DNA of 64,000 nucleotides from Tumebacillus algifaecis (GCF_002243515.1 NZ_CP022657.1:4437501-4501500), one strand, 5' to 3'; counted from the first letter of the stretch, positions 17,982 to 24,555 are shown. Translations and numbers: made by a program. Notes: generated from the sequence alone by a model not told the origin.

Positions 17982-20135
17982 ATGAAAAAGTCTACTGTTA
18001 AGTTTGGCGTGTTGGCAGTTGTCGCATCTCTTACGACCGCTCTGTACAGCCCGCAAGCACTGGCGACCGGCGTTGAGGCAACCTCCGCACCGGTAGTTCA
18101 AAAGACTGATCTTCAACTCGCTCAAATGAAAGGTGCAATCGTGGGTTACCCGGGCACCACCGATTTGAAAGCAGAAAAATACGTCACCCGTGCAGAACTT
18201 GTCGCGATGATCAACAAAGCGCTGAGCCTGCCAGATGTAAAAGTGAAAAAATCTTCCTTCCATGACCTGGCGCAATGGCAGAGCCAAATCGTCGAAAATG
18301 CAGTCGCAGCAGGTCTGGTTTCGGGCGTTGGCAACGGTGCGTTCGAACCGAACCGCGAAGTGACCCGCCAAGAGATGGCTGTGATCATCGGCGCATCGAT
18401 GAACGGCGGCAAAGTGCCGACCGTCAACCAAAACGTACTCAACTATTTCAAAGATAGCGACGCGATCGCTTCTTGGGCGAAACCGTTCGTCGCCTACAGC
18501 ACGATCGCTGGTATTTTCGAACCGAACGCAGACGGCAACTTCGACGCGAACAAAAAGATGACCCGCGGCGAAGCGGCAAAAGCGCTGAAATATGTGCTGT
18601 TCGACGTGCTGGACATCCTGACCACCAACGACATTCACGGCAATATCGAAGTGCAATTTGACAAGAACAAGAACCAAAACCAAGGCGGCATGGAAACGAT
18701 CGGCGGGATCGTCAACGACTTCCGCGCGGTCAACCCGAAAGGCACCATCGTCGTCGATGGCGGCGACGCTTGGCAAGGTACTCTGATCTCCAACCTGTTC
18801 AACGGCGAATCGGTCATCGAGTCGATGGAAGAGATCAAGTACGATGCGATGGCAATCGGCAACCATGAGTTCGACTTTGGCCGCGACGTGTTGATCAACA
18901 ACATCAAGAAGTCGTCGGTGCCGATCATCTCCGCCAACGTGATCGAAGACTCGACTGGCAAACTGGTTGACTGGACCAAGCCGTACGTGATCCTCGACAA
19001 AGGCGGCGTCAAAGTAGGCGTGATCGGCTTCTCCACACCGCAAACGTCAACGACCACCAAATCGACCAACATCGAAGGCCTGTCCTTCCCTGATCCGGCA
19101 CCGATCGCAAAAAAACTGTCGGAAGAGCTGAAAGCACAAGGCGTCGATGTCGTCATCGTCACCTCCCACTTGCCGGGCGAGCAAGAAAAAGCTACGAAAG
19201 AAATCATGGGCGAACTGGTTGACCTCGCGAACGGCACCGGCAAAGGCTACCTCGACGCGATCGTCGGTGGCCACTCCCACCAACGCGTGGCAGGTCATGT
19301 CAACGGCATCCCGGTGGTAGAAGCTTCGCAATGGACCTGGGCGCTGGGCCACATCCAACTGTTCGTAGACAAAGACAACAAAGGCATCGTGTCCTCCAAC
19401 GCAGGTCTGCTGGAAACGTACACCAACCTGACGACTGGCGATGCAGCCGTGAAACAGATCGTCAAAGGCTACAAAGACCAAGTGGCAGTGAAAGAAGCAG
19501 AAGTGCAAGGCATCGCTGCAACCGCACTGTCCCGCAAATCGTACCGCATGGCGAAAAACGGCAACCAAGACCGTGACGGCGTGACCGCGCTTGGCATGAG
19601 CATCACCGACTCGATGCGTAAATCGTCCAACTCCGACATCGCCTTCACCAACGCAGGCGGCGTCCGCGCCGATGTGGACGCAGGCGAAATGACCTACGGC
19701 GAAATGTTCGCAGTTCTGCCGTTTGGCAACGTGAACATGACCGGTACGATGACCTCCGAGCAAGTAAAACGCGCGGTTGACGTCATCGACAAGTATTCCA
19801 AACTGATCGCACTGCAATGGTCGGGCATCAATGTCGAGTGGGACGGCACCCGTCCGGCTGGCGACATGGTCACCAAGATCACCTTGACTGACGGCACCCC
19901 GATCTACGTGGACGGCAAATACAACACCGACCGCACCTTCAAAGTGACCACCAACGACTTCATGGCAACCGGTACCGGCGACGGCTACCTCGTGTTTGGC
20001 GAAGTGAAGGACTGGCAGTTGGGCGATGTAATGCTCGACGGCTGGGTGAACATGGTCAAAGAATTGCACACGCAAGGCAAACAAGTCTCCGTAACTCCGG
20101 ACGGCCGCGATATCCGCACCGACCTGGACAAGTAA
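17982..20135 (+). CDS. SLH-anchored 5'-nucleotidase / UDP-sugar hydrolase
   Basis: A secreted nucleotide-scavenging enzyme of 717 aa. A signal peptide (about 1-28, ending ALA) is followed by three S-layer-homology repeats (about 40-205; TRAELVAMINKAL, TRQEMAVIIGASM, TRGEAAKALKYVL). The repeats would bind it to the pyruvylated cell-wall polymer. The metallophosphoesterase domain starts at about 206 with LTTNDIHGN, then GGDAWQG, GNHEFDFG and GGHSHQR, which hold the two-metal ligands. The 5'-nucleotidase C-terminal domain follows (NAGGVRADVDAGEMTYGE, about 552-569). The ATG has GGGGGA upstream. It is monocistronic with a good terminator. Confidence 0.94.
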   Translation: MKKSTVKFGVLAVVASLTTALYSPQALATGVEATSAPVVQKTDLQLAQMKGAIVGYPGTTDLKAEKYVTRAELVAMINKALSLPDVKVKKSSFHDLAQWQSQIVENAVAAGLVSGVGNGAFEPNREVTRQEMAVIIGASMNGGKVPTVNQNVLNYFKDSDAIASWAKPFVAYSTIAGIFEPNADGNFDANKKMTRGEAAKALKYVLFDVLDILTTNDIHGNIEVQFDKNKNQNQGGMETIGGIVNDFRAVNPKGTIVVDGGDAWQGTLISNLFNGESVIESMEEIKYDAMAIGNHEFDFGRDVLINNIKKSSVPIISANVIEDSTGKLVDWTKPYVILDKGGVKVGVIGFSTPQTSTTTKSTNIEGLSFPDPAPIAKKLSEELKAQGVDVVIVTSHLPGEQEKATKEIMGELVDLANGTGKGYLDAIVGGHSHQRVAGHVNGIPVVEASQWTWALGHIQLFVDKDNKGIVSSNAGLLETYTNLTTGDAAVKQIVKGYKDQVAVKEAEVQGIAATALSRKSYRMAKNGNQDRDGVTALGMSITDSMRKSSNSDIAFTNAGGVRADVDAGEMTYGEMFAVLPFGNVNMTGTMTSEQVKRAVDVIDKYSKLIALQWSGINVEWDGTRPAGDMVTKITLTDGTPIYVDGKYNTDRTFKVTTNDFMATGTGDGYLVFGEVKDWQLGDVMLDGWVNMVKELHTQGKQVSVTPDGRDIRTDLDK

Positions 20136-20152
20136 GTCAATTCGCACATCAG

Positions 20153-20182
20153 AAAGCCGGGAGCTCATGCTCCCGGCTTTTT
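20153..20182 (+). terminator. Terminator of the nucleotidase gene
   Basis: GCCGGGAGC (20156-20164) pairs with GCTCCCGGC (20169-20177), followed by six T residues. The stop codon of the convergent sortase gene overlaps the hairpin. Confidence 0.92.
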
Positions 20183-20782
20183 TGCCGTTGCATAGACAAG
20201 ATAGCGGTAGTCGGTCGCCCGCAGCGCATCGAGCGGATAGCAGCTTTCCAGCACTAAGCCCGTTTCGTTCAGCGCGAAGACCCCATCGCGCACGTGTACC
20301 ACGCGCGCGGCGGTCACTTCATAGCTGAACGTGCCTTCCGCTGTGGAGACGCGAACCGTGTCGCCGCGCTGTAAGCGATCCAGATGGCGAAACCAAGTGG
20401 CGTTATGCGCGGCGAGCAGTGCTGTACCCGCAGTGCCCAGCTTGGCACTGCCCGTCAAATGGCCGACCGCAACGCTGATCTGCTCCTCCTCCGTTCCTTC
20501 GACGATCGGCGCTGTCAATTCCAGCGCGGGGATGTGCAAGACACCTAACGGCGAAGTGGTCGAATCAGCGCCCGAGCCGACTTCTTGGCCGACCGTTGTG
20601 GAAGCTGGCGGTGTTTGAGCTACTTCTCGCGGAACGCCTGAGACGGTATCGAGCGCTTCTGCTAAAAGCTCACCCCCGACCGCATCGGAGCGCAGAAAAA
20701 AGAATGGAATCTGCGAAAGCCATACCAATCCTGCGAGCATCACGAGTAGTCCTGTGACGGTGAGCACCTTTTTGGATCGCAC
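20165..20782 (-). CDS. Class D sortase
   Basis: A membrane transpeptidase that would link sorting-signal proteins to peptidoglycan. The 205-aa product has an N-terminal signal-anchor (about 8-30), a disordered linker, then the sortase barrel (about 80-200). The catalytic triad is in place: His in LLAAHNATWF, Cys in LVLESCYPLDA, Arg in ATDYRYLVYA. The CYP context fits class D. The GTG start abuts the stop codon of the upstream gene with no gap, so it is translationally coupled to its probable substrate at 20783-21880. Confidence 0.92.
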   Translation of the reverse strand: MRSKKVLTVTGLLVMLAGLVWLSQIPFFFLRSDAVGGELLAEALDTVSGVPREVAQTPPASTTVGQEVGSGADSTTSPLGVLHIPALELTAPIVEGTEEEQISVAVGHLTGSAKLGTAGTALLAAHNATWFRHLDRLQRGDTVRVSTAEGTFSYEVTAARVVHVRDGVFALNETGLVLESCYPLDALRATDYRYLVYATAKKPGA

Positions 20783-21880
20783 TTAGTGATGTCCCCTGCG
20801 TCTGGCAAGCAGGATCAACAGACCACCAAACAGGAGCAGTCCGGCACCTTGCCAGACGGTCTCGATCACAGCAACGCCAGTACGGGGTTGAGTACCGCCT
20901 GGGATTTCACCAGCCAGAGGCGGCTTGGTCGGAGGTGCTGGTTTGGGATCTGGATCATTTGGCTTAGGCTCGGTCGGTGGCTCAGTTGGCGGGCAAGTAC
21001 CAGACTCTTCACAGGCCGGTGGGCAGGTCCCAGACTCTTCACAGGTTGGCGGACATGTTCCAGACTCTTCACAGGCCGGTGGGCAGGTTCCAGACTCTTC
21101 ACAGGCCGGCGGACATGTTCCAGACTCTTCACAGGCCGGCGGACATGTTCCAGACTCTTCACAGGCCGGTGGGCAGGTTCCAGACTCTTCACAGGCCGGT
21201 GGACATGTTCCAGACTCTTCACAGGTTGGCGGGCAGGTCCCAGACTCTTCACAGGTTGGTGGGCAGGTCCCAGACTCTTCACAGGTTGGCGGACAGGTGC
21301 CCTTCTCTTCGCACGTCGGCGGCGGCACCGAAACCTCGTGGGCGATCACATGCACATCCAGTTGCCCCTCTTGCCCCTGATAGTCGTTGCCCGCTTCGAG
21401 CGGCATGGCATACGTATAGCTGATGATCGCTTGCTCGTTACGACCCAATTCAAAGCTTGGCGAGTTCTGATTGGATGAGAACACCGGAACCTCGATCTTC
21501 GTGCCCACAGGCAGTTGAAAACGGTTGTAAATCTGAATCGCATAGGAGATTTGTAGCGGATGATCAGAATTCGGAAACTGTTTGAAGATCGCTCCGTCAA
21601 GCACGTGCTTCAAGTAGACGCGCACCCTGCTGTTTCCCTTGTTCTTGACAGTCAGCGACCCGGTTTCCTGATCGCCTGGCGCAATGTTGCCGATATGTTG
21701 TGCACCTGCGAAAATTGGGTCCGGTGACGCCGTGATGTTGATCGTCCCCATCCCCTGCATCGATGCCTCTTCCTGTAGAGACAAACTTGCTAGGGCAAAC
21801 GTCGTGCCTCCTGCCACCAGCATGATGACCAACAGGACGATCGTAAGCAGACGCAACTTGCGTAAGTATCCGCTCCCCAA
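20783..21880 (-). CDS. TasA-like surface protein with Cys-rich repeats and LPXTG-type anchor
   Basis: A 365-aa exported protein, probably the substrate of the adjacent sortase. In order it has a signal peptide (hydrophobic LLTIVLLVIMLVAGG, ending near FALA) and a TasA/camelysin-like domain. That domain shows NIAPGDQETGSLTVKNKG and YAMPLEAGNDYQGQEGQ, both closely paralleled in the TasA at 22118. Eleven copies of a 10-residue unit PPxCEESGTC follow, then a Pro-rich stretch. The C-terminal sorting signal is QPRTG, a hydrophobic span and ARRRGHH. QPRTG replaces the usual LPxTG. The frame is open to 21919, but TTG at 21880 is preferred because GGAGGAGG lies 11 nt upstream. Confidence 0.85.
   Translation of the reverse strand: MGSGYLRKLRLLTIVLLVIMLVAGGTTFALASLSLQEEASMQGMGTINITASPDPIFAGAQHIGNIAPGDQETGSLTVKNKGNSRVRVYLKHVLDGAIFKQFPNSDHPLQISYAIQIYNRFQLPVGTKIEVPVFSSNQNSPSFELGRNEQAIISYTYAMPLEAGNDYQGQEGQLDVHVIAHEVSVPPPTCEEKGTCPPTCEESGTCPPTCEESGTCPPTCEESGTCPPACEESGTCPPACEESGTCPPACEESGTCPPACEESGTCPPACEESGTCPPTCEESGTCPPACEESGTCPPTEPPTEPKPNDPDPKPAPPTKPPLAGEIPGGTQPRTGVAVIETVWQGAGLLLFGGLLILLARRRGHH
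20990..21315 (-). repeat. 30-bp coding tandem repeat (11 units)
   Basis: Eleven head-to-tail 30-bp units encode PPxCEExGTC with x mostly T or A. The copies differ at a few positions, mainly the Thr/Ala codon and third bases; the first unit has EEK in place of EES. The array supplies 22 cysteines. Array length could vary between strains by recombination. Confidence 0.95.
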
Positions 21881-21928
21881 CGTCTCCTTCACCTCCTCCA
21901 GATGAGTTCCGCTCCACACACGACTTGT

Positions 21929-21954
21929 GACTGCGACAATTGTCTGCCGCAGTC
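21929..21954 (-). promoter_or_regulatory. Inverted repeat upstream of the sortase-substrate gene
   Basis: GACTGCG and CGCAGTC arms frame a central ACAATTGT palindrome, about 50 nt before the preferred TTG start. It could be an RNA hairpin processing or attenuating tasA read-through, or an operator. There is no T-tract. The 237-bp gap between this gene and tasA has no other clear signal. Confidence 0.4.
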
Positions 21955-22117
21955 CAAATCTTTATTTGAAGGGGGAGGGAACTCGTGTTCAATCATCAGT
22001 CGTGGGCCGTGTTGATCACCGTGCCTGCCTATATATTGTTGTGATTTGCGTCAGAGCTTGTGAACAGCTGCGCGTAGAGAAAAGGCAGGGTGGTGCGTAC
22101 ATCACCTTGCCAGTTCA

Positions 22118-22633
22118 TTAGTTCCAAGCGATCGGGCCGTTATTTTGGTGGTTCGTGTTATTACGTGCTTGCACCGCTTGCACAACCACGTTGAACGAAC
22201 CCGTAGTGCCCTGGTAGGAGTTATCTGCTGCCAACGGGAAGTTATAGGTCACATCAAACGTTGTCGTGCCGCCTGCTGGCACTTTCACAACCCCATTATC
22301 AAAGCCCAGTTGGAGTGGCGTTGTGCCGCCGAACAGATTGCCCGCACGAGATGCGTTGGAGGCCGTTTGGTTGATTTTTACCCATGCATCGAGTGAGCCG
22401 TTGTTCTTAACTTTCATTTTCACCTTGCCATTGTCGCCAGGTGCCAAGTTGTTGAAGTAGAGCGCTTGCGATGCGATCGGGCCGCCGGACAGATCTTCGA
22501 GATTCAAAGTGCCGGCTGTGAAGGTATTGCCCTTGTTGCTCACCTCTGCTGTGAAGAGCGCGAAGGAACCTGCGCCGATCAGTGTTGCACCCAATGCTGT
22601 TGTCACCATGGCCAATGCAATTTTCTTTTTCAT
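22118..22633 (-). CDS. tasA: TasA/camelysin family biofilm matrix protein
   Basis: A secreted fibre-forming matrix protein, 171 aa, shorter than Bacillus TasA. The signal peptide (about 1-27) ends in the SFALFTAEVSN context that SipW-type peptidases recognise. The domain shows TFTAGTLNLEDL, NNLAPGDNGKVKMKVKNNG and YNFPLAADNSYQGTTGSF, hallmarks of the family. It has no cysteines in the mature part. AAAGGAGG precedes the ATG. It lies directly after sipW, as in the Bacillus tapA-sipW-tasA operon. Confidence 0.92.
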   Translation of the reverse strand: MKKKIALAMVTTALGATLIGAGSFALFTAEVSNKGNTFTAGTLNLEDLSGGPIASQALYFNNLAPGDNGKVKMKVKNNGSLDAWVKINQTASNASRAGNLFGGTTPLQLGFDNGVVKVPAGGTTTFDVTYNFPLAADNSYQGTTGSFNVVVQAVQARNNTNHQNNGPIAWN

Positions 22634-22736
22634 AAAACTACGTCCTCCTTTTCATATGAAGAGCTATATGGATTGTTTCTCGCTCTGTGACGACAGCGTG
22701 TTTCATCTTCCCCGCCATGCAGAACGAGAAAACATT

Positions 22737-23336
22737 TCAGACAGGCTGATTGTGATCTTCTGACGTTGCCGCCGTCGTGGCGGGCGCCTGTTCCTCTTGC
22801 TTTGGCTTCATCACTTCTCGAAACAGGGAGATGATCGGGCCTGCGATCAGCACGATCCCCGGAATGATCAGCATGATCGCAAGACCTGGTCCGGTCGTCA
22901 CCCAGTTAAAGAAGAGCCCGAGCTTGGGAATGTGAAAGTTCGCATACGAACCGATGACTTGCGCCTGACGCACCGGCTCAGTATCGCTCACTTCATTGGC
23001 ATCCCCTTGGGTCAGATAGACGGGAAAGCTGTCTTCCACCTTTACTTCGATGATGCGGTGGGTGATGATGATCGAGGCGTCTTCAGCCGATCGGAAGGTG
23101 ATGACGTCGCCCACTTGATAGGCGGTGGTGAGATCGCCCGGTTTGACAGCGATCAGATCACCCGTTTCAAACACCGGACTCATCGAGCCGGAGAGTACCT
23201 TCATCAGCAGGTGTCCGAACACTTTCGGTTCACCGCCGGTGATCTTCGAACTGACCACGAAATACAGATTGAAACAGAGCAAGACGATCAGGAAGCCGGT
23301 GATGATTTTCCCTGTGATGTTCATTGCTTTTTTCAT
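22737..23336 (-). CDS. sipW: Signal peptidase I, SipW (ER) type
   Basis: The peptidase dedicated to maturing TasA-type precursors. The 199-aa product has an N-terminal span (about 9-27), the Ser motif VLSGSMSPVFETGD (about 48-61) and IITHRI, where ER-type enzymes have His in place of the bacterial general-base Lys. GDANEVSD follows. A C-terminal span lies at about 145-170, followed by a charged, Gln/Glu-rich tail. AAGGAGG precedes the ATG. It follows the first operon gene by 21 bp. Confidence 0.93.
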   Translation of the reverse strand: MKKAMNITGKIITGFLIVLLCFNLYFVVSSKITGGEPKVFGHLLMKVLSGSMSPVFETGDLIAVKPGDLTTAYQVGDVITFRSAEDASIIITHRIIEVKVEDSFPVYLTQGDANEVSDTEPVRQAQVIGSYANFHIPKLGLFFNWVTTGPGLAIMLIIPGIVLIAGPIISLFREVMKPKQEEQAPATTAATSEDHNQPV

Positions 23337-23357
23337 AACAGTCCTCCTTGCGTGTAG

Positions 23358-23867
23358 TTAAGCCAGCGGAGGAGGCGTTTGAGAGTGGTTCTGCTGCAAA
23401 TCGGCAGGTTGCGGCGACGAGCGGTAGTGATCAACAGATGATTCCGGTTCGGGTGCCGTCACCTCTTGATTCTCTTCCGGTGCCGCCTCCTTGTCTTCTT
23501 CCGGCAGGGCAGGTTGCTCTTCCGTTGTTGCCGGGGCGTCGTCTTGATTTTTGTGCGGCTTACAATGTCCATAGCCGTTACCTGGCGGATGCGGTTTGTG
23601 CTTGTCGCCGTTGCGATGGGTGTCTTCGTCACAAAAGTTAGCTGCTGCTTTGACCGTCGAAGCGTTGACTACACTCGCTGTAAACAGCGCATTGGTCGAC
23701 CCTGTGTTCTCAACCCCCAGCAAGATGGTCGTCGAGAAAGCTGTCATCGCGGTGACCATCATCATCCCCCACCGTTTGCGTCGCTCTTTGCGCAGGCGTC
23801 GGTTGTGTTCCAGATGCGATTCCTGTCCCTGCGGTTCGTGGGAATCGAACGACTCGATGCCGTCCAC
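23358..23867 (-). CDS. TapA-position exported protein
   Basis: The first gene of the matrix operon, 169 aa, in the place where Bacillus has tapA. I see no clear sequence match to TapA. A basic N-terminus (RRLRKERRKRWG) precedes a hydrophobic span (about 34-52). Then comes TNALFTASVVN, the SipW-type cleavage context also present in TasA. The mature part starts with a His/Pro/Lys-rich segment with two cysteines, then a long disordered Glu/Pro/Gln tail. The GTG at 23867 lies too close to GGAAGGAGG, so the true start is uncertain. Function as a fibre nucleator or adaptor is inferred from position only. Confidence 0.7.
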   Translation of the reverse strand: MDGIESFDSHEPQGQESHLEHNRRLRKERRKRWGMMMVTAMTAFSTTILLGVENTGSTNALFTASVVNASTVKAAANFCDEDTHRNGDKHKPHPPGNGYGHCKPHKNQDDAPATTEEQPALPEEDKEAAPEENQEVTAPEPESSVDHYRSSPQPADLQQNHSQTPPPLA

Positions 23868-23924
23868 CTCCTTCCTTGCTCAGCCTCGCTGTCGTCTTAC
23901 ATCATCACTTTATGACCTATATAA

Positions 23925-23970
23925 CGAACAAAGAACTACAAATTTCGACCATGTTTTCTTTTTATCGAAC
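23925..23970 (-). promoter_or_regulatory. Candidate SinR operators upstream of the matrix operon
   Basis: The minus strand carries GTTCTTT (23930-23936), an exact match to the SinR-box GTTCTYT. It is directly followed by GTTCG (23925-23929), with another GTTCG at 23966-23970. They lie 60-100 nt before the TapA-position gene, where a repressor could block its promoter. The promoter itself is not clear. Confidence 0.5.
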
Positions 23971-24177: not shown

Positions 24178-24555
24178 TTGCTCGGGACGAAGATACGTCA
24201 ACTTCGTAAAGAAAGAGGGCTGAGTCTTGGTGAGTTGGCTTTGCGAGCCGACTGTGCGAAGAGTTACCTGAGTGACATCGAGCGCGGTGTCCGTGACAAT
24301 CCATCGATCCAATTCATTGAGAAGATCGCGTTGGTGTTGGAAGTGCCGACCGAGTTCTTTTTCGATAAGAGTTACACCACAGCCGAAATGCTGGCGAACG
24401 AGTTAGCGCCTGAGATGATCGAATTGGTTAAACAGCTCGACCTCGGCTGGTTGCAGTTGACCCAGCAGGCGGCATCCAGCGGCTTGACCAAAGAGCAGTT
24501 TCAAGAGTTTATCGAATATGCGCGCTGGAAATCATCCCAATCTTCCGGCGACTAG
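24178..24555 (+). CDS. sinR: SinR-like master biofilm repressor
   Basis: A 125-aa homologue of Bacillus SinR. The N-terminal XRE domain (GLSLGELALRADCAKSYLSD, then NPSIQFIEKIALVLEVP) closely follows SinR. The C-terminal LDLGWLQLTQQAASSGLTK, then EQFQEFIEYARWK, matches the SinR/SinI multimerisation hairpin. The TTG start has GGAGGG 7 nt upstream. It is divergent from the tasA operon, which SinR represses in Bacillus, and candidate boxes lie between them. No sinI is visible nearby. Confidence 0.92.
   Translation: MLGTKIRQLRKERGLSLGELALRADCAKSYLSDIERGVRDNPSIQFIEKIALVLEVPTEFFFDKSYTTAEMLANELAPEMIELVKQLDLGWLQLTQQAASSGLTKEQFQEFIEYARWKSSQSSGD

Follow-up and report, generated by a model that had tools for sequence, protein, structure and literature searches.

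A TasA-family protein with a sortase sorting signal in the matrix operon of Tumebacillus algifaecis, a candidate wall anchor for TasA fibers

How TasA fibers are held on cells is an unsettled question. TapA was first called the anchor of these fibers. In later work it appears mainly as a chaperone and as the initiator that gives the first donor strand (PMC9674648; PMC10151520). Within the fiber, each subunit n inserts its N-terminal strand into the groove of subunit n+1, and F29 of subunit n together with Q232 of subunit n+1 hold P62 of subunit n+2 (PMC9674648; PMC10151520). Here, we describe a matrix operon of Tumebacillus algifaecis, located in a stretch of 64,000 nucleotides (GCF_002243515.1, NZ_CP022657.1:4437501-4501500; hereafter the window), which encodes a second TasA-like protein with a sortase sorting signal and a sortase directly behind it. 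Like tapA-sipW-tasA of Bacillus subtilis (PMC9674648; PMC10151520), it has the order tapA-like gene, sipW, tasA, SipW-type leaders, a SinR-type regulator and site, and a TasA with equivalents of F29, F39, P62, and Q232; it differs in having two further genes (the anchored paralogue and the sortase), a TapA-like protein without a recognizable folded domain, and a shorter TasA. Our preferred reading, to which we give about an even chance, is that the operon makes a TasA fiber plus a dedicated wall anchor, that is, an acceptor-only, sortase-anchored end subunit that would capture the free donor strand of the fiber. The five genes can be read directly in the window, at the positions that an earlier, sequence-only reading of this DNA had assigned to them:

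23358..23867, minus strand: TapA-like protein (partial match to TIGR04087, E 0.001, 18.8 of 80 bits)
22737..23336, minus strand: signal peptidase SipW (TIGR02228, 127 bits, cut-off 51.85)
22118..22633, minus strand: TasA of the fiber type, with equivalents of F29, F39, P62, and Q232 (PF12389, 56.3 bits, cut-off 22.5; alignment)
20783..21880, minus strand: predicted sortase-anchored TasA-like protein (PF12389, sorting signal, alignment, AlphaFold)
20165..20782, minus strand: class-D-like sortase (PF04203, 84.9 bits, cut-off 26.6)

The most likely start of the anchored gene is a TTG at 21880, 8 bases downstream of a conserved GGAGGTGA. Its product consists of a SipW-type leader, the TasA-like domain (about residues 31-190), 11 C-x5-C/Pro units, a Pro-rich linker, and the QPRTG, hydrophobic span, and Arg tail (RRR) already noticed in the sequence-only reading (IPGGTQPRTGVAVIETVWQGAGLLLFGGLLILLARRRGHH). 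It thus carries the elements of a sorting signal, namely xPxTG, a hydrophobic span, and a positive C-terminal tail, at a score of 14.2 bits compared to the LPXTG_anchor cut-off of 15.9 and with the canonical first Leu absent. The repeated units form a stalk in which 11 C-E-E-x-G-T-C heptads are joined by P-P-[TA], giving 22 Cys (DNA period 30 bp, 10.4 copies), and disulfides within the C-x5-C units would make it stiff. The unit is 10 residues long in the window and 11 in both congeners examined, which suggests repeat turnover. C-x5-C and Pro-rich units also occur in the anchored proteins of two other families (L066:8020-9090, CKDPKGC; L086:7472-8446, CEDRGDC), so this type of stalk is either shared or convergent. 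Elsewhere among the anchored members the linker is short or Pro-rich, which marks the long Cys stalk as a feature elaborated in some lineages.

As had also been read, the GTG of the sortase gene directly follows the TAA of the anchored gene with zero gap (CACTAAGTGCG). The active-site residues His126, Cys181, and Arg193 are invariant in the alignment of three Tumebacillus species, and the C-terminal heptapeptide TAKKPGA does not vary within the genus. The earlier assignment to class D holds as far as the nearest class is concerned, since class D gives the best score of the sortase classes and class C is far lower (94.5 versus 52.9 bits), but the enzyme remains below the cut-offs of both curated NCBIfam class D models (NF033746, 87.4 of 165 bits; NF058671, 94.5 of 140 bits). 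The genome contains two sortases, and a distance of 4.9 kb separates the second from the single strong LPXTG protein. With each enzyme beside its candidate, each appears to have its own substrate, other substrates having been sought by family search only.

The shared fold that the sequence-only reading proposed for the anchored protein and TasA started from the phrases NIAPGDQ/NLAPGDN and DYQGQEGQ/SYQGTTGS. These phrases are present, and they mark the two places where the anchored group as a whole matches TasA structures. A profile made from anchored domains only (17 sequences) retrieves TasA (5of1, 8aur) at 1e-5, with no other match below 0.5; the TasA match runs through two colinear segments, one near NLKPGD and one near NKYQG. 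The protein of the window passes PF12389 narrowly, over the N-terminal half of the profile only (23.2 versus 22.5 bits). The AlphaFold model of its domain is a jelly roll with a mean pLDDT of 90 that matches TasA (5of2) in order over 125 residues at Z 8.2 (VIA-align), although unrelated jelly rolls reach up to Z 9.6; TasA, seen with VIA-align, is absent from the 50 Foldseek rows listed for this model. The structural mismatch to TasA that would have refuted the earlier reading thus did not appear, with the reservation that other jelly rolls match as well. For comparison, the model of the window TasA (pLDDT 79, N-terminal donor segment disordered) reaches only Z 5.7 against 5of2. Because unrelated jelly rolls score similarly, the fold is compatible but not diagnostic, and what stands of the proposed likeness is the kinship indicated by family and profile matches, which place the anchored domain in the TasA/camelysin family. 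With the equivalents of F29, F39, and Q232 replaced, it is best classed as a member of this family other than a fiber-type TasA.

The arrangement recurs well beyond this genome. Among 399 Bacilli genomes PF12389 is found in 63, and the loci of all 63 were read and scanned by script for sorting signals. These occur in 19 of 153 TasA-family open reading frames compared to 2 of 1596 others in the same genomes. An anchored TasA-family member is present in 19 of the 63 genomes and in 12 families (one, G306 with LPMTN, is doubtful). The anchored members always occur in sipW-tasA clusters. Of the 19 genomes with an anchored member, 9 have a sortase near the cluster, compared to 0 of the 44 without, and every checked genome with a sorting-signal-bearing member has at least one sortase. 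The neighboring enzymes are SrtD (tails LPNTA, LPDTA, and LPNTS), diverged SrtD in Tumebacillus and L079 (xPxTG tails), and in one case a class C-like sortase (LPQTG). In the xPxTG group, all seven members combine this motif (QPRTG, DPETG, NPVTG, APVTG, KPVTG, or SPVTG) with a span and an Arg/Lys tail, and in four of them the sortase gene is directly downstream. A second group has LPNTA/LPDTA tails, which exceed the NF058670 cut-off in L066, L091, and L099, and SrtD-type enzymes nearby in some genomes. In the orthologue of genome G286 (L090:11750-12415), 60% identical to the protein of its congener G268, LPATS has changed to LLGSS with the membrane span kept; no sortase was found in this 99% complete genome, whereas G268 has three sortases and an intact motif. 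The joint loss of motif and enzyme is what one would predict for a motif recognized by sortase. Taken together, the anchoring of the protein is well supported at the sequence level. In a tree calculated without the interface columns, the anchored members fall into two supported groups, and a single anchored clade is rejected by the approximately unbiased (AU) test (p 0.0015), a value to be read with caution given the few columns and some long branches. Tree and test favor the view that anchored TasA paralogues arose twice.

The residues of the fiber interface were counted in an alignment of 145 domains, comprising 126 free TasAs and 19 anchored proteins (the L090 orthologue and 18 proteins that carry a sorting signal). 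Searching for F29 and Q232 by regular expression gave false matches in leaders and stalks and was discarded in favor of the alignment. P62 is kept in 19 of 19 anchored members, and the N-x-[YF]-Q region is likewise invariant in all 19. Q232, by contrast, is found in none of the 19 anchored members compared to 113 of 126 free TasAs, and F39 in 3 compared to 115. An aromatic residue stands in the F29 column of 5 anchored proteins (free TasAs: 108 of 126), only where the leader slides into the column. In all three Tumebacillus members, Ala and Met replace F29 and F39, and most members outside this genus have few residues between the leader and the first strand. Residues of the donor side are thus lost in all anchored members. 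On this alignment, both lineages with an anchor have kept the same half of the interface and lost the other, and the weight of the evidence lies in this agreement of two groups together with the losses on the donor side.

With the groove side and P62 kept and the normal donor strand and Q232 lost, such a domain would take a strand, pass none on, and thereby end a fiber. In the mechanism we propose, the TapA-like protein would give the first donor strand, and SipW-processed TasA subunits would polymerize by donor-strand exchange. The sortase would cut the anchored protein at Q-P-R-T|G and link it to peptidoglycan, with the Pro/Cys stalk holding the TasA-like domain out from the wall. This acceptor-only domain would then take the free donor strand of the last fiber subunit, ending the fiber and tying it to the wall. 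The sequence-only reading had set this arrangement against the Bacillus scheme, in which TapA makes the link. The operon does have two additional genes, for the anchored protein and the sortase, but its first gene itself encodes a protein that is TapA-like N-terminally, with a segment, ALFTASVV, resembling the TasA donor strand, followed by a Cys pair and a Pro/Glu-rich tail. The folded TapA (Ig) domain is not recognizable in it, the TIGR04087 match covering the N-terminal third of the model only and lying below the cut-off. With a TapA-like first gene, the operon adds to the Bacillus scheme and is no simple replacement of TapA. More tentatively, and with somewhat less than an even chance, TasA fibers across Bacilli may end in a sortase-fixed, acceptor-only paralogue that arose at least twice, forming a three-part donor-strand pilus of TapA-like starter, TasA body, and wall-bound end.

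Several points weigh against a fiber-ending role. The proposed contact with TasA is deduced from the gene layout and the residue pattern, and a missing donor side would also suit a protein that has left the fiber altogether. In the Tumebacillus members, about 20 residues still precede the first strand, and these may form a degenerate donor strand. Since the anchored proteins trace back to only about two origins, their residue counts are not independent, and Fisher p-values overstate the evidence. In addition, the anchored gene lacks a nearby sortase in 10 of the 19 genomes. The strongest rival, which we regard as possible if rather unlikely, draws on the first of these points: a wall-bound surface protein of TasA fold, an adhesin or spacer, would act alone without touching the fibers, and the operon would be shared for biofilm life and, in Tumebacillus, for the use of SipW. 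The loss of the donor strand and Q232 is what such a departure would leave behind, yet P62, a residue of the fiber interface (PMC10151520), is as invariant as N-x-[YF]-Q in all 19 members, where both may, however, be needed for folding, and the constant company of sipW-tasA also speaks against this rival. We consider it improbable that the anchored protein instead starts the fiber, its own N-terminal strand entering the first TasA groove like that of TapA and growth proceeding outward from the wall. The SipW-type leader and normal distance to P62 in the three Tumebacillus members would allow this, but the Ala and Met in place of F29 and F39, the missing N-terminal segment in most other anchored members, and the TapA-like donor encoded first in the operon all argue against it. 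It is very improbable that the sortase builds a covalent pilus from the anchored protein or from TasA in class C fashion: the enzyme does adjoin its substrate, and a class C-like sortase is found at the related locus L092, but the window enzyme is nearest to class D, the substrate is a single globular domain, and TasA is without a sorting signal, and on sortase class and TasA this explanation was rejected. Equally hard to credit is a QPRTG that is no sortase signal in a protein held by its C-terminal membrane span, since the missing Leu and low score of the motif are outweighed by its occurrence with span and tail throughout its group, four times with a sortase directly downstream.

The remaining features of the operon and its surroundings are as follows:

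24178..24555, plus strand: SinR/SlrR-like regulator, divergent from the operon (HTH_3 and SinI domains above Pfam cut-offs; NF046032 below cut-off)
23915..23945, minus strand: conserved block that precedes the operon and includes a SinR-type site (GTTCTTT), TAGTTCTTTGTTCGTTATATAGGTCATAA, nearly identical in three Tumebacillus species
21905..21970, minus strand: intercistronic hairpin GACTGCGGCA..TGTCGCAGTC, its lower stem extended, shortly before the anchored gene

The frequency of the 7-mer alone (GTTCTTT/GTTCTYT) in the window is not above chance, and putative SinR control therefore rests on the conserved block and the divergent regulator. The hairpin is common to the three Tumebacillus species, occurs as a single copy in the genome, and has no T-run; it might determine how much anchored protein and sortase is made relative to TasA. 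SipW stays below the cut-off of the Bacillus equivalog NF046067 (163.9 of 190 bits), and the window TasA below that of the TasA equivalog NF046066 (41.3 of 450 bits). At the other end of the operon, a terminator-like hairpin (AAGCCGGGAGC-ATGA-GCTCCCGGCTT, window 20150-20182) holds the sortase stop codon in its loop and is shared with the convergent gene. This neighbor (window 17982-20135) reads as a 5'-nucleotidase-type phosphoesterase with SLH-like repeats and is present in both congeners. The class D sortase of B. subtilis is known to act on nucleotidases. The tails of L066 and L091 also match NCBIfam nucleotidase models.

The comparison with relatives, proposed earlier as a check, found the operon and the same neighbors in two congeners, T. 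avium (G005) and G006, with 64-65% identity to the window for the anchored proteins and 66-67% for the sortases. The tapA-like gene is kept in both congener loci (L013 and L014), and the sorting signals in the genus are TQPRTG and TDPETG. Both congeners have an extra TasA-family gene of 301-304 amino acids (aa) between tasA and the anchored gene (L013:4009-4923; L014:4111-5016); this second free gene was found neither in the window operon (21919-22118) nor elsewhere in the T. algifaecis genome. A contig scan with an alignment of Tumebacillus sequences only returned T. avium only, the peptide patterns being genus-specific. A stalk match in G003 (L015) was dropped as a weak match to low-complexity sequence in an unrelated gene.

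The survey also brought up TasA-family clusters of other kinds. Four loci of family f26 (L063, L083, L084, and L085) have two sipW-tasA clusters a few kb apart, one of them with TasA-family proteins of 417-452 aa, which suggests two parallel SipW-dependent fiber systems. The Enterococcus-like loci L081, L082, L093, and L098 (families f37 and f9) have sipW clusters with up to four TasA-family genes and domains too divergent for the comparison, and one gene per cluster has an anchor-like tail (LPMTN, FPRTG, FPMTG, or LPKTN); L093 is the only one of these loci among the 19 genomes with sorting signals, and none contributes to the 19 proteins of the interface count. In family f11, where the genomes have several TasA paralogues, very long TasA-family proteins of 611-711 aa (L101:4367-6502; L102:6474-8309) are encoded at a distance from the main cluster.

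Outside the B. subtilis scheme, the TasA/CalY/CapP system of B. cereus likewise combines two TasA-type proteins, SipW, and a wall-associated accessory protein with a repetitive C-terminal domain, but it is described as sortase-independent, and CapP is a DUF4047 protein that is not TasA-like and for which no sorting signal is reported (PMC13082335). In Clostridium perfringens, the sipW-bsaABCRSD operon with srtB upstream also joins a SipW-dependent fiber protein to an adjoining sortase gene; here, deletion of srtB left BsaA polymers and pellicles unchanged, BsaA has no sorting motif, and no anchored BsaA paralogue is described (PMC7395162). Class D sortases and their LPxTATN substrates (NF058671 and NF058670) are the nearest class to the Tumebacillus pair, in which the enzyme is under the cut-offs and the motif is xPxTG without Leu. 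No description of a sortase-anchored TasA paralogue was found in the open-access library searched. A recurrent anchored paralogue with one half of the interface is a specific candidate for the link between matrix fibers and cells and, if the acceptor-only reading is true, predicts which fiber end is wall-bound. An acceptor-only subunit at one end of a donor-strand fiber has a precedent in the FimH pilin domain of chaperone-usher pili, which is located at the outer tip and binds a receptor. The end subunit proposed here differs in that it would be tied by sortase to the wall of the producer or of a neighbor. It would thereby connect sortase anchoring with donor-strand exchange, two modes of surface assembly that are commonly discussed separately.

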